Source: Acidovorax sp. sif1233
Lineage (GTDB): Bacteria > Pseudomonadota > Gammaproteobacteria > Burkholderiales > Burkholderiaceae_C
Length of the DNA stretch: 64,000 bases
Reading direction: 5' to 3'
Assembly: GCF_019218755.1 (NCBI RefSeq)
Contig: NZ_JAHUWZ010000001.1
Location: forward strand, 992,001 to 1,056,000
Shown: one piece after another, positions 1 through 10,595 of the stretch
Numbering within the stretch: the first letter of the stretch is position 1
Layout: every line of letters begins with the position of its first letter
Notes under the pieces: model-generated
What the model saw: only the letters and a program-made list of their open reading frames with translations
The model's database searches: none
Told to the model about the DNA's origin: nothing
Program-made: the position numbers and the translations under genes

Positions 1-742
1 AGCGCGGGTCCTCGGCCAGCTCCACGCGGCGGCGGGGGCGGGGCAGGTCGACGGCCAGCACCTCGCCAATGGTGGCGGCGGGGCCGTTGGTCATCATCAC
101 GATCTTGTCGGACAGCTGCACGGCCTCGTCCACGTCGTGGGTGACCATGACCACGGTGCTCTGTGTGCGCGCCACGATCTCCAGCAGCTCGTCCTGCAGC
201 TTGGCGCGGGTCAGGGCATCGAGCGCGCCGAAGGGCTCGTCCATCAACAGCACCTGGGGTTCCATGCCCAGCGCACGGGCGATGCCTACGCGCTGCTTCA
301 TGCCGCCCGAGATCTCGCCGGGGCGCTTTTGCCCGGCGTGCGTGAGGCCCACCAGCGCCAGCGCCGCATCGGTGCGGGCCCTGAGCTGGGCCTTCGTTTC
401 CTTGCCGCCAAACACGCGTTCCACGGCGAGGTAGATGTTGTCAAAGCAGGTGAGCCAGGGCAGCAGCGAGTGGTTCTGGAACACCACGGCGCGCTCCGGC
501 CCCGGGCCCCTGATCTCCTTGTTGGCGCACAGCAGTGCGCCGTTGGTGGGCGTGGTCAGCCCCGCGATCAGGTTCAGCAGCGTGGACTTGCCGCAGCCCG
601 AGTGGCCGATCAGCGCGACGAACTCGCCCTTGGCGATGGTGAGGTTGATGTCGCGCAGCGCCGGGAACAGGCCCTTGGCGGTCTTGAAGGTCTGCTCCAC
701 GCCATGGACTTCGATGAACTTGGTGGTGAGAGAGGTGTGCAT
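1..742 (-). CDS. nrtD: Nitrate/nitrite ABC transporter ATP-binding protein, 3' end outside window
   Basis: Cytoplasmic ATPase that would drive nitrate/nitrite uptake with the adjacent NrtB permease and NrtA binding protein. About 247 codons are visible from ATG at 742. The N-terminus reads MHTSLTTKFIEV, followed by Walker A GHSGCGKST, the signature ISGGMKQR and Walker B VLLMDEP, which are typical of the NrtD/SsuB/TauB subfamily. The gene continues past the left edge, so it cannot be decided whether it is a plain ATPase (NrtD) or the longer NrtC form with a fused binding-protein-like domain. It lies about 100 bases after nrtB, separated by a GC-rich 3'-end repeat, and is probably co-transcribed. 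Confidence 0.88.
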   Translation of the reverse strand, partial: MHTSLTTKFIEVHGVEQTFKTAKGLFPALRDINLTIAKGEFVALIGHSGCGKSTLLNLIAGLTTPTNGALLCANKEIRGPGPERAVVFQNHSLLPWLTCFDNIYLAVERVFGGKETKAQLRARTDAALALVGLTHAGQKRPGEISGGMKQRVGIARALGMEPQVLLMDEPFGALDALTRAKLQDELLEIVARTQSTVVMVTHDVDEAVQLSDKIVMMTNGPAATIGEVLAVDLPRPRRRVELAEDPR

Positions 743-846: not shown

Positions 847-1815
847 TCAGGTTTTGACCTCTTCGAAGGTGAACGCAGTGGCCAGCTTGATGAGCGCGAA
901 CTCCAGCACCAGCCCGACGATGCCGATCACGAAGATCGCGATGATGATGTTCTTGACGTTGAGGTTGTTCCACTCGTCCCACACCCAGAAGCCGATGCCC
1001 ACGCCGCCGGTCAGCATCTCGGCGGCCACGATCACGAGCCACGCGGTGCCCACGGCCAGGCGCACGCCGGTCAGCATGTAGGGCAGCACGGCGGGGAACA
1101 GGATCTTGGTGGCGATCTTCCACTCCGACAGGTTGAGCACGCGGGCCACGTTCATGTAGTCCTGCGGCACACGCTGCACGCCCACGGCGGTGTTGATGAT
1201 CATGGGCCAGATGGAGCAGATGAAGATCGTCCAGATGGCGGCCGGGTTGGCACCCTTGAACACCAGGAGGCCGATCGGCAGCCAGGCCAATGGAGACACC
1301 GGGCGCAGCAGGCTGATGAGCGGGTTGAACATGCGCGACAGGAAGTTGAAGCGCCCGATCACGAAGCCCGCCGGAATGCCCACCAGCGCCGCCATGCCAA
1401 AGCCCACGGCCACGCGTTCGAGCGACATCAGCACGTTCCAGCCCACGCCCTGGTCGTTGGGACCGTTGCGGTAGAACGGGTTGCTGAAGATTTCCTGCGC
1501 CTGCTTCCAGGTTTCCACCGGGCCGGGAATGCTGTTGCCCGTGGTGGCTGACACCACGGCCCACAGACCCACCAGCAAGCCCAGGCCACACAGCGGCGGA
1601 AGCACCGCCATCCAGAAGCCGCGCGACAGCGCCGCCCAGTCGCGACCGGCGGGGGCTGCAGGTGCCGTGGGCGCAGGGCTTGCCGCCATAGCCGTTTTTG
1701 ACTGTTTTTGGCTTCTAGCGCTTGCGGACGAAGCGCTGCTAGCTACATTATTCATAGCGTTCTGTGCAACCACGGGGGCTGCATCCAGCGGGGAGTGAAA
1801 GACGGCACTGACCAT
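847..1815 (-). CDS. nrtB: Nitrate ABC transporter permease NrtB
   Basis: Inner-membrane permease of 322 residues for the nitrate importer. The first 70 or so residues are an Ala/Ser/Pro-rich cytoplasmic tail; five to six hydrophobic segments follow (for example LPPLCGLGLLVGLWAVVSA). A binding-protein-dependent transport EAA-type loop lies near residue 210 (VPQDYMNVARVLNLSEW). ATG at 1815 has a good ribosome site (AGGAGA, 5 bases upstream). Unusually, bases 1694-1759 inside the N-terminal tail are a copy of the dispersed AGCGCTTG repeat, here translated as NNVASSASSASARSQKQS. The family does not need this tail, so the repeat was probably captured as coding sequence. Confidence 0.9.
   Translation of the reverse strand: MVSAVFHSPLDAAPVVAQNAMNNVASSASSASARSQKQSKTAMAASPAPTAPAAPAGRDWAALSRGFWMAVLPPLCGLGLLVGLWAVVSATTGNSIPGPVETWKQAQEIFSNPFYRNGPNDQGVGWNVLMSLERVAVGFGMAALVGIPAGFVIGRFNFLSRMFNPLISLLRPVSPLAWLPIGLLVFKGANPAAIWTIFICSIWPMIINTAVGVQRVPQDYMNVARVLNLSEWKIATKILFPAVLPYMLTGVRLAVGTAWLVIVAAEMLTGGVGIGFWVWDEWNNLNVKNIIIAIFVIGIVGLVLEFALIKLATAFTFEEVKT
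1694..1759 (-). repeat. Dispersed AGCGCTTG-type repeat inside nrtB
   Basis: On the minus strand it reads GTAGCTAGCAGCGCTTCG, then CGCAAGCGCTAGAAGCC and a T/A-rich end. The core is an inverted repeat AGCGCTT...AAGCGCT flanked by AATA/ATAGC. Related copies lie between genes at 3342, 43063 and 58604. This copy is fully inside the nrtB reading frame and keeps it open. Confidence 0.75.
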
Positions 1816-1851: not shown

Positions 1852-3096
1852 TTACGCCTTGATCTTGAAGCTGTCGGCGTACTTGGCGGGGTCCTTGCCG
1901 TCCCACACCACGCCGTCCATGAACTTGCTCGTACGCATTTCGCTCTTGGGCAGCGGTGTCTTGGAAGCGGTGGCCGCCTGCTTGTAGACGTCGATGCGGT
2001 TCACGGCCTTGGCCACGTTCAGGTAGTCGGGGTGGTCCTTGACCAGGCCCCAGCGCTTGTGCTGCGTGAGGAACCACATGCCGTCCGTGAGGTAGGGGAA
2101 GTTCACCGTGCCCTCGTTGAAGAACTTCATGTGGTTGGGGTCGTCCCAGGTCTTGCCCATGCCGTCCTGGTAGCGGCCCAGGATGCGCTGGTTGATGGCA
2201 TCGACGCCCGTGTTCACGTAGGCCTTGCCGGCAATGGTCTCGGCCATCTTGTTCTTGTTGGCCAGGCCTTCGTCGATCCACTTGCTGGCCTCCAGGATGG
2301 CGGCCGTCACGGCACGGGCCGTGTTGGGGTACTTCTGCACGAATTCGGACGTGGTGCCCAGCACCTTCTCGGGGTGGTCCTTCCAGATGTCCTGCGTGGT
2401 CGTGGCCGTCACGCCGATGCCGTCCATGATGGCGCGGTGGTTCCAGGGCTCGCCCACGCAGAAGCCGTCCATGTTGCCCACGCGCATGTTGGCCACCATC
2501 TGTGGCGGGGGCACGGTGATGACCTTGGCATCCTTCATCGGGTTGATGCCGTTGGCCGCCAGCCAGTAGTACAGCCACATGGCGTGCGTGCCGGTGGGGA
2601 AGGTCTGCGCGAAGGTGTACTCGCGCTTCTCGCTGGCCATCAGCTTGGCCAGGCCCGCGCCATTGACGGCGCCCTTGTCGGCGAGCTTCTTGGACAGCGT
2701 GATGGCCTGCCCGTTGTGGTTCAGGTTCATCAGCACGGCCATGTCCTTCTTGGGCCCGGCCAGGCCCAGGTGCACGCCGTAGACCAGGCCGTACAGCACG
2801 TGGGCGAAGTCGAGTTCGCCGTTGACCAGCTTGTCGCGCACACCGGCCCAGGAGGCTTCCTTGGTGGGGATGATGGTCACGCCGTACTTCTTGTCGATGC
2901 CGAGCACCGAGGCCATCACCACGCTGGCGCAGTCGGTCAGCGGGATGAAGCCGATCTTGACTTCCTTCTTCTCCGGCGCGTCCGAGCCCTGGGCGTGCAC
3001 CAGCGCACGCAGCGCGGGGCTGACGCCGACGGCGCCCACGGTGGCGGCCTGCAGCACGGTGCGGCGGTTGAGGCTGGTTTTGAGCAGATCGGTCAT
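1852..3096 (-). CDS. nrtA: Nitrate/nitrite ABC transporter substrate-binding protein NrtA
   Basis: Periplasmic nitrate-binding protein, 414 residues. It starts with a twin-arginine-like signal (SLNRRTVLQAATVGAVG, cleavage near HAQG). Family landmarks are IGFIPLTDCA, GTHAMWLYYWLAANG, VGNMDGFCVGEPW and NFPYLTDGMWFLTQ. ATG at 3096 is chosen because AGGAAG lies 6 bases before it; an in-frame ATG at 3111 is possible. It is the first gene of the nrtA-nrtB-ATPase operon; the gap to nrtB is 36 bases. Expression is predicted to need sigma54 and NasT-mediated antitermination, from the leader at 3124-3300. Because a signal peptide is present, this is the transport protein rather than the cytoplasmic sensor NasS. 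Confidence 0.92.
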   Translation of the reverse strand: MTDLLKTSLNRRTVLQAATVGAVGVSPALRALVHAQGSDAPEKKEVKIGFIPLTDCASVVMASVLGIDKKYGVTIIPTKEASWAGVRDKLVNGELDFAHVLYGLVYGVHLGLAGPKKDMAVLMNLNHNGQAITLSKKLADKGAVNGAGLAKLMASEKREYTFAQTFPTGTHAMWLYYWLAANGINPMKDAKVITVPPPQMVANMRVGNMDGFCVGEPWNHRAIMDGIGVTATTTQDIWKDHPEKVLGTTSEFVQKYPNTARAVTAAILEASKWIDEGLANKNKMAETIAGKAYVNTGVDAINQRILGRYQDGMGKTWDDPNHMKFFNEGTVNFPYLTDGMWFLTQHKRWGLVKDHPDYLNVAKAVNRIDVYKQAATASKTPLPKSEMRTSKFMDGVVWDGKDPAKYADSFKIKA

Positions 3097-3123
3097 GGGG
3101 CACTTCCTCATAGCGTTGAAAAC

Positions 3124-3182
3124 AAAAAAGGCGTCCTCCCGAGCAGCCTGCATACATGCAGCACCGGTCGGTGAGGGACGCC
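3124..3182 (-). terminator. Leader (attenuator) terminator upstream of nrtA
   Basis: On the minus strand GGCGTCC pairs with GGACGCC, followed directly by TTTTTTG. The long intervening stretch contains a second small dyad, CTGCATGTATGCAG. The T-run ends 27 bases before the nrtA ATG, so this is an intrinsic terminator inside the 5' leader, as expected of an antitermination-controlled nas/nrt operon. Confidence 0.82.
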
Positions 3183-3216
3183 TCTGTCCATGGCGATACC
3201 CGATGAAGGGCTCGCC

Positions 3217-3273
3217 CAGCACCGGCCCGCCTTTGGGCCCGTGCTGTGTGGGGGTGAGACCGCCATTGGTCTC
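3217..3273 (-). promoter_or_regulatory. Two-hairpin ANTAR target in the nrtA leader RNA
   Basis: In the RNA, hairpin P1 (3273-3256) is GAGACC-[AATGGC]-GGTCTC, a perfect 6-bp stem with a six-base loop. After 9 bases, hairpin P2 (3246-3217) has CAGCAC...GGCCC pairing with GGGCC...GTGCTG around the loop AAAGGC. Both hexaloops have A at position 1 and G at position 4, the known requirement for ANTAR-domain antiterminators. The attenuator terminator follows, and nasT is the next gene upstream. NasT would bind P1/P2 in the presence of nitrate/nitrite and allow read-through into nrtA. Confidence 0.87.
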
Positions 3274-3284
3274 GCAGGGGTTAA

Positions 3285-3300
3285 TGCAAGTGGCGTGCCA
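3285..3300 (-). promoter_or_regulatory. Sigma54 (RpoN) promoter of nrtA
   Basis: On the minus strand TGGCACG-N4-TTGCA matches the -24/-12 consensus with the required GG-N10-GC spacing. The predicted start, about 12 bases past the GC element, falls near 3274, one base before ANTAR hairpin P1. The transcript would therefore begin at the antitermination element. No convincing NtrC site was recognised upstream. Confidence 0.85.
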
Positions 3301-3341
3301 GGCCTTGCCGCACGGGCTCCGCATCAGTTCGGCGCATGGTT

Positions 3342-3406
3342 TGCTATTGAATTAATAGCTGCTTGCGCAAATGGATCAAGCGCTGGGGGCCTTTTTGACC
3401 TGCAAA
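3342..3406. repeat. Dispersed AGCGCTTG-type repeat
   Basis: Reads GCTATTGAATTAATAGCTGC, then TTGCGCAA, ATCAAGCGCTGGGGGCC and TTTTTGACC. It is the same family as the copies at 1694, 43063 and 58604. It lies about 40 bases upstream of the nrtA sigma54 promoter, where activator sites would be expected. Confidence 0.7.
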
Positions 3407-3513
3407 CGCGCGGAGGTTGTGCGCGCGGTGAATGCCGCACTGCCTTTGTGCGGCGCACCATCCGGGAGAAGCCGGTGGACCTGGGCGTGGCCCAGGCCGG
3501 GGATGCCGGGCAG

Positions 3514-3640
3514 CGATTCGAGAGGAGGGGCCAAGGGCCGCGGCTCCAAGACTGCCTGCGCAGTCTGGACGGTCCCCGAGAGCGGGCGGCCTCTGGCGGC
3601 TGCACCGATGCGCGCAGCGCCTCAGGAGGATGTCACCTGC
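3514..3640 (-). repeat. GC-rich 3'-end repeat downstream of nasT
   Basis: Begins a few bases after the nasT stop with CCTCCTGAGGCGC and contains GACTGCGCAGGCAGTC and GGAGCCGCGGCCC. Nearly the same blocks, in the same order, follow the transglutaminase gene at 31735-31853. No coding potential is evident. Confidence 0.6.
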
Positions 3641-4267
3641 TTACCCGAGCAGGTCCATCACGTCGAGCATGCGCTGGGCCACATCCACGAGCTTGAGGCC
3701 CTTGTCCATGGCGGTCTTGCGCAGTTTCTCGTACGCGGCCTGCTCGGTCAGGCCCTGGCGCTGCATGAGCAGGCCCTTGGCGCGGTCGATGGTCTTGCGG
3801 TCCTTGAGCTCGGTCTTGGCATCGGCGAGCTCGGCGCGCAGCGCCTGCTCGTGCTGGAAGCGCGCCATCGCCACGTCCAGGATGGGGCGGATGCGCTGGG
3901 GCGCGAGGCCGGCCACGATGTAGGCCGACACGCCCGCGGCCACCGCGTCCTTGACGTGCGAGGTGTCCTCGTCGTTGGTGAACATCACGATGGGGCGGCG
4001 TTCGTCGCGCGTGGCCACCACCACGTGTTCCAGCGCGTCGCGGGCCTCGCTCTCGGCGTCCACGATGATCAGGTCGGGCTGCAGCTGGGCGATCCGCTCG
4101 CTCAGGAACACATCCGCGGGCAGCGTGGCGATCAGGTTGAAATTGTTCTCCAGCAGCCCGATGCGCAGCGCCCGCGAACGCTCCGCCTGCAGCACGGCGT
4201 GTTCGTCGTCGGGGTCGGCAATGGCCAGGTCCGGGGCCACCACCACGATGCGCAGAGACTCGTTCAT
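3641..4267 (-). CDS. nasT: ANTAR-domain response regulator/antiterminator NasT
   Basis: RNA-binding antiterminator for nitrate assimilation, 208 residues from ATG at 4267; an in-frame ATG at 4279 is also possible. The N-terminal two thirds is a receiver-like domain (LRIVVVAP, LIIVDAE with the phospho-acceptor-position Asp, PIVMFTND). The C-terminal region from RKTIDRAKGLLMQRQG to VAQRMLD is a typical ANTAR three-helix domain. It stands next to the nrtA leader carrying the matching two-hairpin target, which supports the assignment. The usual partner NasS (cytoplasmic NrtA-like nitrate sensor) is not in the window. Confidence 0.9.
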   Translation of the reverse strand: MNESLRIVVVAPDLAIADPDDEHAVLQAERSRALRIGLLENNFNLIATLPADVFLSERIAQLQPDLIIVDAESEARDALEHVVVATRDERRPIVMFTNDEDTSHVKDAVAAGVSAYIVAGLAPQRIRPILDVAMARFQHEQALRAELADAKTELKDRKTIDRAKGLLMQRQGLTEQAAYEKLRKTAMDKGLKLVDVAQRMLDVMDLLG

Positions 4268-4474
4268 ACCCCGGAGCATAAGCAATTTTTACGCCACAAA
4301 TTGGTGCGCCGAAGCGGTGCGCCCCGGGCGGGCGCCCGGTCCCGGCAAGGGCCTTGTCTTGCAGGGTCTGAAACTTGCTAATAGTTTGCCGATTGGCAGG
4401 GCATACCCGATAGCGCCTTTCCTCCGTCGTCGCATATACATCTGGTCACATTGACATATTGATGAGGATTCCGC

Positions 4475-5641
4475 ATGAACAAGCATATTGACCGGCGCCG
4501 TTTCGCCGCCGGGCTGGCCTTGACCACCGCCGCGTCCATGGCGCTGCTGCTCCTGTCCGGGTGCGGCAAGGTGCCCGACACCATCAAGATCGGCGTGGCG
4601 CAGCCCTTGAGCGGCCCCCTGGGCGCCCTCGGGCAGGACTTGCTCAATGGCGTGAACCTGGCCGTGGCCGAACTGAACAAGGGCGGCTACACCGTGGACG
4701 GCAAGCGGGTAACGCTGGAGGTGGTGGCGGTGGACGACAAGGCCGACGCGGCCACCGGCAAGACGGTGGCCCAGCAGCTGGTGGATGCCGGCGTGGTGGC
4801 CGTCATCGGGCACCTGAACTCGGGCGTGAGCATCGAGACCGCGCCCATCTACGCGGCCAAGGACATCGCGCAGATCGCCATCTCCACCAACCCCAAGTTC
4901 ACGCAGCTGGGTTTTTCCACCACCTTCCGCATGGTGGGCAACGACACGCTGCAGGCGCGCGCCATCGGCTCGTTTGCCGCCACCCAGCTGGGCGCCGCGC
5001 GCTATGCCGCGCTGGACGATGGCACGCCCTACGGCAAGGGCCTGGCCGACGGGGCCGCCGCGCAGCTCAAGGCCGAGAAGAAAGAGGTGGTGGTGCGCAA
5101 GTCGTTCGACGACAAGACCACGGCATTCGACGAACTGGCCGGCGAACTCAAGGCCGCGAAGGTGGAGGTGATCGTCTCCACCCTCAATGACTTCCAGGCG
5201 CTGGCGCTGCTGGAAGCACTGCGCAAGGTGGGGCACACCAAGGTGAGCCTGCTGGGCGGCGACACCATCAAGACCACCGACATGACCAAGGGGGCCGGCA
5301 TCGTCGAGGGCGTCTATGCCACCTCGCCCGTGCTGGAAGCCAAGGAGTTTTCCACGGGCAAGCCCTTCCTGGAAAAGTACATCGATGCCTACAAGAAGCC
5401 GCCCGCGTACGGCGGGCACTACAGCTACGACAGCATGTACGTGCTCTCGGCGGCCATCCAGAAGGCCAAGTCCGCGGACCCCAAGGACATCACCAAGGCC
5501 ATGCACGGCATCAACGGCTACGCGCCCGTGATCGGCACGATGACCTGGGATGACAAGGGCGAGCAGCGCTACGGCGCGGTGGGCGTGTACGAACTGCGCA
5601 GCGGCAGCTGGGAGCTGCGCATGCGCTCGGACCGCTGGTAG
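4475..5641 (+). CDS. Branched-chain amino acid-type ABC substrate-binding lipoprotein (orphan)
   Basis: Predicted periplasmic lipoprotein of 388 residues, type I (LivJ/LivK-like) ligand-binding fold. The signal contains RRRF and ends in the lipobox LLSGC with the acylated Cys at residue 30. The mature part has [19 protein letters not shown], a Leu/Ile/Val-binding hallmark, and [19 protein letters not shown]. No permease or ATPase is adjacent, so the substrate and partner are unknown; it could be amino acids, urea-like or aromatic ligands. ATG at 4475 follows TGAGGA. A strong terminator follows the gene. Confidence 0.85.
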
Positions 5642-5741: not shown

Positions 5742-6788
5742 ATGAGTCTGTTGATCCTCGGAATTGAATCCTCGTGCGACGAGACCGGCGTGGCGCTGGT
5801 GCGCTCCACGGGCGATGCCGTTCCCACCCTGCTGTCCCACGCCCTGCACAGCCAGATCGAGATGCACCAGGCCTATGGTGGCGTGGTGCCCGAGCTGGCC
5901 AGCCGCGACCACATCCGCCGCGTGCTGCCGCTGACCACGCAAGTGTTGACGGAGTCCGGCCAGACGCTGGCGGACGTGGACGTGGTTGCTTACACGCGCG
6001 GCCCGGGCCTGGCGGGTGCCCTGCTGGTGGGGGCCGGCGTGGCCTGCGCGCTGGGCGCGGCGCTGGACAAGCCGGTGCTGGGCGTGCACCACCTGGAGGG
6101 GCACCTGCTCTCGCCCTTCCTGAGCGCGGACCCGCCCGAGTTCCCCTTCGTGGCCCTGCTGGTCTCCGGCGGCCACACCCAGCTCATGCGGGTGGACGGC
6201 GTGGGCCGCTACGAGATCCTGGGCGAGACCATCGACGACGCGGCGGGCGAGGCCTTCGACAAGTCGGCCAAGCTCATGGGCCTGGGCTACCCGGGAGGGC
6301 CGGCGCTGTCACGCCTGGCCGAGCAGGGCGATCCGGCGGCCTTCAAGCTGCCGCGCCCGCTGCTGCACAGCGGCAATCTCGACTTCTCCTTTGCCGGGCT
6401 CAAGACCGCCGTGCTGACCCAGGCCAAGAAACTGGGCGACGGGCTCGAAGCGCGCAAGGCCGACCTGGCGGCCAGCACCGAGGCCGCCATCGTCGAGGTG
6501 CTGGTGAAAAAGACGCTGGCGGCGCTCAAGCAGACCGGACTCAAGCGCGTGGTGGTGGCCGGTGGTGTGGGCGCCAACCGGCATCTGCGGGCGCAGCTCA
6601 ATGCCGCCTGCGCGGCGGCCAGGGTGCGGGTGCACTACCCCGAATTGCACCTGTGCACCGACAACGGGGCCATGATCGCCATGGCGGCGGCAATGCGGCT
6701 GCAGGCGGGGCAGCAGGAGGCGAACACCGACTATGCGTTTGATGTGAAGCCGCGGTGGCCGCTGGATTCCATCGTGCCAGTCGGCTGA
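5742..6788 (+). CDS. tsaD: tRNA N6-threonylcarbamoyladenosine transferase TsaD
   Basis: Transfers threonylcarbamoyl to A37 of ANN-decoding tRNAs with TsaB, TsaE and TsaC. 348 residues, close to the family length. Seen: [18 protein letters not shown] at the start, the iron-binding HxxxH (VHHLEGHL), [35 protein letters not shown] and [12 protein letters not shown] at 5742 is chosen to match the family N-terminus. It is a single gene between the terminator at 5671 and the convergent gene ending at 6822. Confidence 0.97.
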
Positions 6789-6821
6789 AATGGGCTGGTC
6801 ATTCCAGCCCCGTCGACAAAA

Positions 6822-9085: not shown

Positions 9086-10537
9086 TCAAAATGGATAGTG
9101 CCTCGGGGTTGTCTGCACCGTGATCCAGCGCAGCTCCGTGAACTCCCGCACCCCCGCCATCCCCCCAAACCGCCCGTACCCCGAACTCTTCACCCCACCG
9201 AACGGCATCTGCCCCTCGTCATGCACCGTCGGCCCGTTGATGTGACAGATCCCCGACTCGATGCGCGCCGCGACGTTCCACGCCTTGGCCACATCGCGGC
9301 TGAACACGGCGGATGACAGGCCGAACTCGTTGTCGTTGGCGCAGGCAATGGCTTCTTCCACACCATTCACGCGCACCACGGGCTTGACGGGACCGAACGA
9401 CTCCTCGCGGTAGATGTCCATCTCGGCCGTCACGTGGTCGAGCACGGTGGCCTGCATCAGCGTGCTATCGCTCTTGCCGCCGCACACCAGCGTGGCGCCC
9501 TTGGCCAGCGCGTCGTCGATGAGCGCGTTGCAGCGGTGCACCGTGGCCATGTCCACCACCGAGCCGAGCACCACCGGGCCCTTGCGCGGGTCGCCCAGGG
9601 GCAGGGCCTTGGCGCGCGCGCCGAGCTTGGCCACGAACTCGTCGGCCACGGCGTTGTCCACGATGATGCGCTCGGTGGACATGCAGATCTGGCCCGAGTT
9701 GGCGAACGAGCCGAACACGGTGCCGGCCACGGCGGCATCGACGTCCGCATCGTCCAGCACCAGCAAGGGTGCCTTGCCACCCAGCTCCAGCACCACGGGC
9801 TTGAGGTACTTGGCACACGTCTGCGCGATGATGCGGCCGACCTTGGTCGAGCCCGTGAAGTTCACGCGGCGCACGGCCGGGTGGGCCACGATGGCCTCGA
9901 CCACGGCACCGGCGTCTGCGGGTGCATTGGTCACGAAGTTCACCACGCCTGGCGGCAGGCCGGCCTCCTGAAGCGCCTCGATGATCAGGCCGTGCGTGGC
10001 CGGGCTCAGCTCCGAGCCCTTCAAGATGACCGTGTTGCCGCAGGCCAGCGGCGTGGCAATGGCGCGCACCCCCAGGATGATGGGCGCGTTCCACGGCGCG
10101 ATGCCCAGCACCACGCCCGCGGCCTGGCGCACGCCCATGGCCAGGCTGCCGGGCACGTCCGACGGAATCACCTCGCCGGCGATCTGCGTGGTGAGGGCCG
10201 CAGCCTCCTGCAGCAGTCCTGCCGCTAGGTGCACGTTGAAGCCGGCCCACAGACCCGATGCGCCGGTTTCTGCGGCCATGGCGGCAGCAAAGGCATCGCC
10301 CTTGGCTTCGAGTGCGTGCGCCGCCTTGAGCAGCAGCGCGCGGCGCGCGTTGGGCCCCAGGGCCGACCAGGCCGGGAAGGCCTGGGCGGCGGCGTCGGCG
10401 GCGGCCTTGGCATCGGCCACGGTGGCCGCTGGGGCCGTGGTGGCCGCGGAGCCGCCCAGCGGGTTGCGGCGCTCGAAAGTCGCGCCGCCGGTGGCTTGCA
10501 CGCGCTCGCCGTTGATCAGCATGGAAATGGCAATCAT
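9086..10537 (-). CDS. NAD(P)-dependent aldehyde dehydrogenase, aromatic (vanillin/salicylaldehyde) type
   Basis: Oxidises an aldehyde to its acid; 483 residues. Catalytic Glu251 lies in VLELGGKAP and nucleophile Cys285 in SGQICMS; NFTGST (near residue 226) is the cofactor-binding signature. The N-terminal style and MPFGGVKSSGYGRFGG resemble vanillin and salicylaldehyde dehydrogenases; the substrate is inferred. ATG at 10537 has AGGAGA 6 bases upstream. It lies 58 bases after livF on the same strand, so it is probably the last gene of the transporter operon, suggesting that the imported compound is an aromatic aldehyde or is converted to one. Confidence 0.88.
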   Translation of the reverse strand: MIAISMLINGERVQATGGATFERRNPLGGSAATTAPAATVADAKAAADAAAQAFPAWSALGPNARRALLLKAAHALEAKGDAFAAAMAAETGASGLWAGFNVHLAAGLLQEAAALTTQIAGEVIPSDVPGSLAMGVRQAAGVVLGIAPWNAPIILGVRAIATPLACGNTVILKGSELSPATHGLIIEALQEAGLPPGVVNFVTNAPADAGAVVEAIVAHPAVRRVNFTGSTKVGRIIAQTCAKYLKPVVLELGGKAPLLVLDDADVDAAVAGTVFGSFANSGQICMSTERIIVDNAVADEFVAKLGARAKALPLGDPRKGPVVLGSVVDMATVHRCNALIDDALAKGATLVCGGKSDSTLMQATVLDHVTAEMDIYREESFGPVKPVVRVNGVEEAIACANDNEFGLSSAVFSRDVAKAWNVAARIESGICHINGPTVHDEGQMPFGGVKSSGYGRFGGMAGVREFTELRWITVQTTPRHYPF

Positions 10538-10595
10538 GGAATGTCTCCTGGATGAATAGGAAGGAAAAGTCGGATGGGGATGGGGTGCGGGACGT

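Follow-up and report, generated by a model that had tools for sequence, protein, structure and literature searches.

The nrtA gene of Acidovorax sp. sif1233 is preceded by a compact leader in which three ANTAR-type hairpins, not two, lie between a predicted sigma54 promoter and an intrinsic terminator. The arrangement as a whole is very probably explained by an nrtABD transcript that is started by sigma54 and NtrC, and on which NasT binds the second and third hairpins (P2 and P3) and holds P3 against the terminator, the first hairpin (P1) being an extra. The window, i.e., the whole stretch of 64,000 nucleotides that was analysed, carries on its minus strand, from 3300 to 3124, the sigma54 box, P1, P2, a spacer hairpin, P3 and the terminator, in this order, followed by nrtA, nrtB and a gene for an nrtD-type ATPase. 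With the predicted start (3274) taken as +1, the loops of P1, P2 and P3 begin at +8, +41 and +90, and the U-run is at +146 to +151. The region 3090-3280 folds with a minimum free energy of -91.3 (z of -4.1). A preliminary description of this DNA had proposed a sigma54 promoter and ANTAR attenuation ahead of nrtA, and this proposal is supported: the box, P1, P2 and the terminator are all present.

The nrtA gene (1852..3096, minus strand, ATG at 3096) encodes a nitrate-binding protein (PF13379, 345 bits) which has, by eye, a twin-arginine-like signal. It is followed by the gene of the NrtB permease (847..1815, minus strand; TIGR01183, 252 bits for a cut-off of 209) and by that of the nrtD-type ATPase (1..739, minus strand), which is cut by the window edge (TIGR01184, 338 bits for a cut-off of 292, read in L012:17930-18739). 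The nasT gene (3641..4276, minus strand) is adjacent, as had been stated, and lies upstream of the leader. NasT is an ANTAR antiterminator (74.3 bits, E 6.6e-21) with a degenerate receiver domain (19.9 bits, below the cut-off of 30.2); the receiver-like and ANTAR domains expected of a NasS-NasT system are both found, and the protein is 99% identical to the NasT of Acidovorax sp. Leaf191. A gene for a branched-chain amino acid-type binding protein (4475-5641, plus strand) is divergent from nasT. According to excerpts of a study of Bradyrhizobium, NasT affects transport genes of the branched-chain amino acid type (PMC6759348).

The -24/-12 box TGGCACGCCACTTGCA (TGGCACG-CCAC-TTGCA; 3285..3300, minus strand) has the GG-N10-GC spacing, with GG at 3299-3298 and GC at 3287-3286, and the start predicted from it falls one base ahead of P1, in agreement with the preliminary description. 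It is the only exact match to TGGCACGNNNNTTGCW in the window. With up to two mismatches, the box pattern has 13 matches in the window for 19 expected, so that the box taken by itself says little. The weight of this putative promoter comes from conservation: a looser pattern, TGGCA[CT]-N5-[TC][TC]GC, occurs within 450 nt upstream of nrtA in all 71 leaders that were compared (the window and 70 of 80 relatives, after 10 loci without an nrtA start had been dropped). A C-G closed hexaloop hairpin lies 31-34 nt from the box in 60 of the 71 leaders, only offsets of 31-34 nt being scanned, and in 40 of these the distance is 33 nt, as in the window; this fits the earlier remark that the leader has no spare sequence.

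Further upstream, GCAC-N7-GTGC (GCACAAAGGCAGTGC; 3437..3451, minus strand) matches the consensus of the NtrC enhancer dyad. An NtrC-like dyad is present upstream in 65 of the 71 leaders, at -106 to -181 from the box, compared to one expected under a Markov model (largest of 200: 5). The other spacings, from N3 to N13, are seen in 0-2 leaders each, except N12 (19 leaders). The two elements of a candidate sigma54/NtrC promoter, a -24/-12 box and an upstream NtrC-like dyad, are thus found together, and no sigma70 promoter was found in 2900-4500. In Acidovorax citrulli, according to part of one report, the deletion of NtrC abolishes nitrate use, lowers a gene called nasS and raises nasT (PMC10052978). 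Since no NasS was found in the family, this "nasS" may be the nrtA of the equivalent locus. The element AAGCAGCTATTAATTCAATAGC (window 3350-3364), which also lies upstream of the promoter, is present in some relatives and has one more match in the window, with 3 mismatches; it is perhaps a dispersed repeat.

P1 (GAGACC-AATGGC-GGTCTC; 3256..3273, minus strand, loop 3267-3262) is the 5'-terminal hairpin. P2 (CAGCAC-G-GGCCC-AAAGGC-GGGCC-G-GTGCTG; 3217..3246, minus strand) has a long stem and the loop AAAGGC at 3234-3229. Both fold as had been claimed. The spacer hairpin between P2 and P3 (3192..3216, minus strand) has the loop TTCATC, which is not ANTAR-like. As drawn for the window, it has 58-71% of its cells paired in 11 close relatives, and its form in other leaders was therefore judged by eye. 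P3 (GGAC-AGAGGC-GTCC; 3176..3189, minus strand, loop 3185-3180) has bases in common with the terminator AGGCGTCC ... GGACGCCT (3124..3183, minus strand). The arms of this terminator, whose presence before nrtA had been correctly recognised, are 3183-3176 and 3136-3129, and its U-run is 3129-3124. Since the 3' side of P3 is the 5' arm of the terminator, the two are mutually exclusive: the transcript folded up to the 3' arm of the terminator contains P1, P2, the spacer hairpin and P3, and in the full transcript the terminator replaces P3.

The published rules for ANTAR targets, as given in portions of PMC7496416 and PMC3369931, are A1/G4 loops, a C-G closing pair, and a second hairpin of the pair that overlaps the terminator. 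Three C-G closed A1/G4 hexaloop hairpins are present in the leader where two are called for, and the overlap with an exclusive terminator is made by P3, not by the pair P1+P2. The preliminary description presented P1+P2 as a complete two-hairpin site; it overlooked P3, which is the terminator-excluding hairpin. Judged from the sequence, P2+P3 is the likelier ANTAR pair.

All three hairpins are A1/G4 hexaloops in 44 of the 71 leaders, which makes the three-hexaloop leader common in Comamonadaceae. This count comes from a fixed-geometry scan in which a P1 had to lie 31-34 nt from the box, a P2 had to be A1/G4, and a P3 had to have G4 and either A or G at position 1. P2 is a C-G closed A1/G4 hexaloop in 71/71 leaders (the scan required it, and L043 is doubtful). 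The P3 pattern is also found in 71/71, with A1 in 66 and G1 in 5 (L087, L088, L090, L091 and L092); the nirB leaders of L018, L079 and L080 have G1 too, so A1 is not absolute in the switch loop. The constancy of A1/G4 that had been expected across homologous leaders thus holds for P2 and mostly for P3, but not for P1, where 22 of the 71 leaders are without it.

The exclusion of the terminator by P3 is also conserved. When the terminator arm is located by the first T-run alone, pairing not being required, the seven bases before this T-run pair 7/7 with bases 4-6 of the P3 loop and the 3' side of the stem in 63 of the 71 leaders (56 of them all Watson-Crick). The remaining 8 have no T-run in reach or an earlier one that, by eye, is not that of the terminator. 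Seven leaders have GAAC/GTTC instead of GGAC/GTCC: a matching GAAC arm is found in two (L079 and L081), and five pair via G-U. Distant leaders show the compensations CGAC/GTCG/CGAC (L134) and GGGC/GCCC/GGGC (L138), or an altered loop with the corresponding change in the arm (L211 and L212); these four illustrate compensation but do not test it, because their scan required pairing. The stem of P3 has only 4 bp and is invariant in both alignments described below, so the case for compensation relies on few variants.

Covarying stems had been anticipated across relatives. In 26 relatives without the spacer, the covariation of the P1-P3 structure is 0.327, compared to 0.143 for shuffled alignments (0/500 as high) and 0.05-0.12 for slid versions. 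The expectation is borne out mainly for P2, which gives nearly all the signal, with little from P1, P3 being invariant. Covariation is weak among the 12 closest leaders, window included (0.096 vs. 0.077, 7/500 as high). A covariance model was built from the 26 relatives, the window being left out, and was used to search the 5.76 Mb assembly (150 of 4820 first-look candidates scored). It found three leaders, ahead of nirB (93.7 bits), nrtA (66.5 bits) and narK (45.6 bits).

The narK leader precedes the gene of a NarK-type transporter (218 bits, below the model cut-off of 312). In the nirB leader, P2 and P3 are proper, and P1 is a tetraloop hairpin (GACCC-TGCG-GGGTC), not an ANTAR loop. Beyond nirB, in the same direction, are genes for a molybdopterin oxidoreductase (472 bits with the NasC model, below its cut-off of 1100) and for a uroporphyrinogen methyltransferase. 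A fused PP2C phosphatase/Ser-Thr kinase-like gene lies between the nirB and narK leaders (L012:2474-4234). Of the 37 loci of relatives in which nirB was matched, 5 have a recognisable nirB leader, and the match in one of them (L142) is at 36% identity. The nine family loci with a more usual NasT (L172-L180) have two hexaloops in 8 cases, and three or more hexaloops are also seen in L127, L138 and L188. The pattern GGAYANNGGCGTCC was rejected as a genome-wide finder: it has 6 matches, as many as its reversed control, of which three are leaders (nrtA, nirB and that of a formate/nitrite transporter) and the other three have, by eye, neither box nor U-run.

The preferred mechanism can be described as follows. 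When nitrogen is limiting, NtrC bound near 3444 would activate the sigma54 promoter, and the nrtABD transcript would begin at about 3274. P1 would form as soon as the RNA emerges, followed by P2, the spacer hairpin and P3. If nothing holds it, P3 would be undone once the 3' arm of the terminator emerges, and transcription would stop at 3129-3124. By analogy with other ANTAR systems, from which the binding is inferred, a dimer of NasT (or of a relative) would grip the A1/G4 hexaloops of P2 and P3, the pair being assigned by comparison of leaders; it would hold P3, the terminator would not form and nrtA would be read. P1 would be an extra hairpin at the 5' end, which has a good ANTAR loop in this leader and might be a reserve site for docking or a relic of an earlier pair. 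NasT would receive its nitrate signal from something other than NasS, or none.

A NasS profile was made from seven NasS of other families of the class; held-out NasS score 548-709 bits with it. In this genome it detects no NasS (E 1e-20), the only match being NrtA itself (310-312 bits). NasS was not found in 150 family genomes either (best match 432 bits, at most 11 first-look candidates being scored in each). NasT is found at 110 bits or more in 72 of these 150 genomes, 48 of the kind seen here and 24 nearer the usual NasT of the class. Three further proteins of the class score 672-694 bits, and one of them (L133) has an apparent export signal; a high score with the NasS profile is therefore no proof of a cytoplasmic sensor. 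Since NasS was not found, NasT would get the nitrate signal elsewhere or not at all, which exposes a gap: a NasT system without its known sensor.

A tentative answer, possible although we would not rely on it, is that NrtA, which its twin-arginine-like signal suggests is probably exported folded, doubles as the cytoplasmic nitrate sensor of NasT before export; this would be an exchange of sensor in the family. NrtA relatives that have no export signal are encoded beside nasT in two loci (L083:10952-12184 and L188:6849-8087). In both, a second protein of the nitrate-binding type, which has a signal, comes next, in L083 together with, by eye, a permease and an ATPase. The two NrtA relatives fall within the clade of exported proteins, with 95/99 for the group that they form with L080; the branches are long and are flagged by the tree. 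The twin-arginine-like signal does not point to a role as sensor, because the NrtA of genomes with NasR keeps the same signal. In one genus, the end of a gene on the minus strand overlaps the start of nasT; this gene encodes a protein that has a NIT domain but no ANTAR domain (PF08376, 136 bits in L211:6302-7315 and 121 bits in L212:6149-7189), and the two may be a split NasR. The L211 protein has no match among 121 other records, window included.

NasT might also have no nitrate input and be always active, in which case the leader would couple nrtA only to the level of NasT or to the nitrogen status. NasS was found neither in this genome nor in the 150 of the family, and the nasS mutant of Paracoccus makes nitrate reductase with and without nitrate, according to the relevant passages of PMC5424462. 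We nevertheless regard this as rather unlikely: many members of the family have retained the attenuator, the stems of which covary, and this suggests that it is used as a switch, and NasR, which has a nitrate-sensing domain, is encoded upstream of this nrtA in other members (15 of 17 chosen NasR regions).

NasR could itself read the nrtA leader, NasT being secondary. This NIT-ANTAR protein (NIT 146 bits, ANTAR 74 bits) is encoded elsewhere in the genome, at G000:C23, next to the gene of a formate/nitrite transporter. Two A1/G4 hexaloops are found in the leader of this transporter gene; they are U-G and not C-G closed, and one of them overlaps the terminator. NasR takes the place of NasT ahead of nrtA in other genomes. 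In the 17 NasR regions, which were chosen because a NIT domain was encoded close to the nitrate-binding gene, NasR is upstream of this gene, 15 times ahead of this NrtA and twice ahead of one that is 34% identical; the gap between the two genes is about 2.9 kb in L196. The P3-type hairpin is found in 17/17 of these regions and an A1/G4 partner in 13/17. However, nrtA is linked to NasT in the present genome, and the nrtA-type model does not report the leader of the NasR locus genome-wide (13.6 bits when scored), so the two leaders differ as sets. A reading of the nrtA leader by NasR is therefore unlikely. A second nirBD set lies with nasR and the formate/nitrite transporter gene in L192:9580-15173 (G000:C23) and in L010; it is the transporter gene that has a weak sigma54-like box, together with the two U-G closed hexaloops, ahead of it.

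It could also be that NasT binds P1+P2 and that this pair alone decides termination, P3 being only the foot of the terminator. The linker between P1 and P2 is of 9 nt only, so this pair fits better on linker length; that between P2 and P3 is of 27 nt with the spacer hairpin inside, beyond the 2-25 nt used in a curation of ANTAR RNAs (described in part of PMC8164766), unless the distance is reduced by the folding of the spacer hairpin. The loops of P1 and P2 are both of the A1/G4 type and C-G closed, and P1 keeps these features in 49 of the 71 leaders and its A1/G4 loop in 23 of the 26 with a long P2-P3 spacing. However, neither P1 nor P2 overlaps the terminator, so that together they give no exclusion, and P1 has another loop or is absent in 22 of the 71 leaders, and has a tetraloop in the nirB leader of the same genome, where P2 and P3 stay. 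We consider this explanation quite improbable. In the leaders other than these 49, the loop of P1 is a tetraloop (GNRA or not), a triloop or a different hexaloop (e.g., L051, L057, L083, L046 and L039), and Polaromonas L068, L069, L075, L079 and L081 have no P1-type hairpin. Minimum-energy calling gave A1/G4 loops for P1 in 46/82 cases and was replaced by the fixed geometry, because it undercounts hexaloops in which A1 can pair with U6. The A1/G4 loop of P1 is absent in 19 of the 45 leaders with a short P2-P3 loop spacing (26-35), compared to 3 of the 26 with a long one (Fisher p 0.008, which ignores kinship). As the loss is concentrated in the former, P1 may have a role when a long distance separates P2 from P3, which is the case in the window.

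That these are ordinary hairpins and a terminator with no ANTAR control is hardly credible. In favour of this view, single A1/G4 hexaloops with stems of at least 5 are fairly frequent, the two strands of the window having 27 and 36 of them. Pairs of such hexaloops, at most 60 nt apart, occur only in the nrtA leader and at one other site in the 64 kb. The position-specific A1/G4, the C-G closing, the covariation and the place of the leader behind nasT or nasR across the family argue against it.

At gathering scores, Rfam gives no match in the window. The leader reaches 21.5 bits with narK RNA (RF03032, gathering 43.2, model positions 1-72 aligned) and 22.5 bits with P11 (RF00625, gathering 70, model positions 1-139 aligned), in both cases over the full length of the model but below its threshold; below-threshold matches to mir-593, CRISPR-DR28, Prion_pknot, sR23, NrsZ and Ms_IGR-7 were taken as chance. 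Among 22 class and family loci, L134 is the only one that passes gathering, with P11 at 126 bits ahead of nirB (10441-10580) and narK RNA at 55 bits (6749-6815), 154 nt behind the nasT match. The consensus lines of both families have a GG-N10-GC sigma54 box (position 14 in P11, 1 in narK RNA), then A1/G4 hexaloops and a CGAC or GGAC switch hairpin, by which we recognise them as putative sigma54-started ANTAR attenuators whose 5' part would be promoter DNA, not RNA. If the box is used, the promoter would make up about 25 of the 72 positions of narK RNA and 38 of the 139 of P11. In the 150 family genomes, the narK RNA model has 53 weak matches, spread over 46 genomes and all below gathering; 45 of the 53 are directly behind nasT or directly ahead of a nitrate-binding gene (coordinates read by eye). 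P11 has 8 matches at E 1e-4 in 276 class genomes, 1 above gathering, and 4 of the 8 are within 5 kb of nasT (coordinates read by eye). The "narK motif" was not found in the literature searched. The discovery of narK RNA and the antitermination of nirBD in P. aeruginosa are reportedly the subject of earlier studies, and the points made here on P11 and narK RNA may already be in print.

The preliminary description called this leader a clean example of the scheme of Klebsiella and Azotobacter, which is too simple, because the third hexaloop was missed and NasS was not found. The three-loop, NasS-less leader is a new form, and the mechanism itself is of a known kind; a literature search on three-hairpin ANTAR leaders returned no publication recognised by its title as being on the subject. 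The comparison also corrects which hairpins probably act in a widespread nitrate switch. As judged from excerpts of PMC3369931 and PMC7496416, the two-hairpin attenuators (Klebsiella nasF/NasR, Enterococcus eut/EutV) have the same A1/G4 hexaloops and C-G closing, and their last hairpin excludes the terminator; the nrtA leader differs from them by its third hexaloop, by the spacer hairpin that lies between P2 and P3, and by the position of P1 at the very 5' end. P11 and narK RNA share with it the GG-N10-GC box followed by C-A..G..-G hexaloops and a switch hairpin, although the leader of the window is far below both gathering scores. The NasS-NasT system of Paracoccus, Azotobacter, Pseudomonas and Bradyrhizobium likewise has NasT beside the leader of a nitrate operon, and nitrogen control by NtrC (PMC3795266, PMC5424462 and PMC6759348, in the parts that deal with it). 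In contrast, no NasS was found here, and this NasT is 29-52% identical to its matches in the 66 other genomes of the class that have one (32-52% in one of the searches). The same two-layer logic is known from Klebsiella nasF, where a start by NtrC and sigma54 is combined with antitermination by NasR (from the account in part of PMC5424462), whereas here NasT, not NasR, is linked to the leader, and the genome has three such leaders, ahead of nrtA, narK and nirB.
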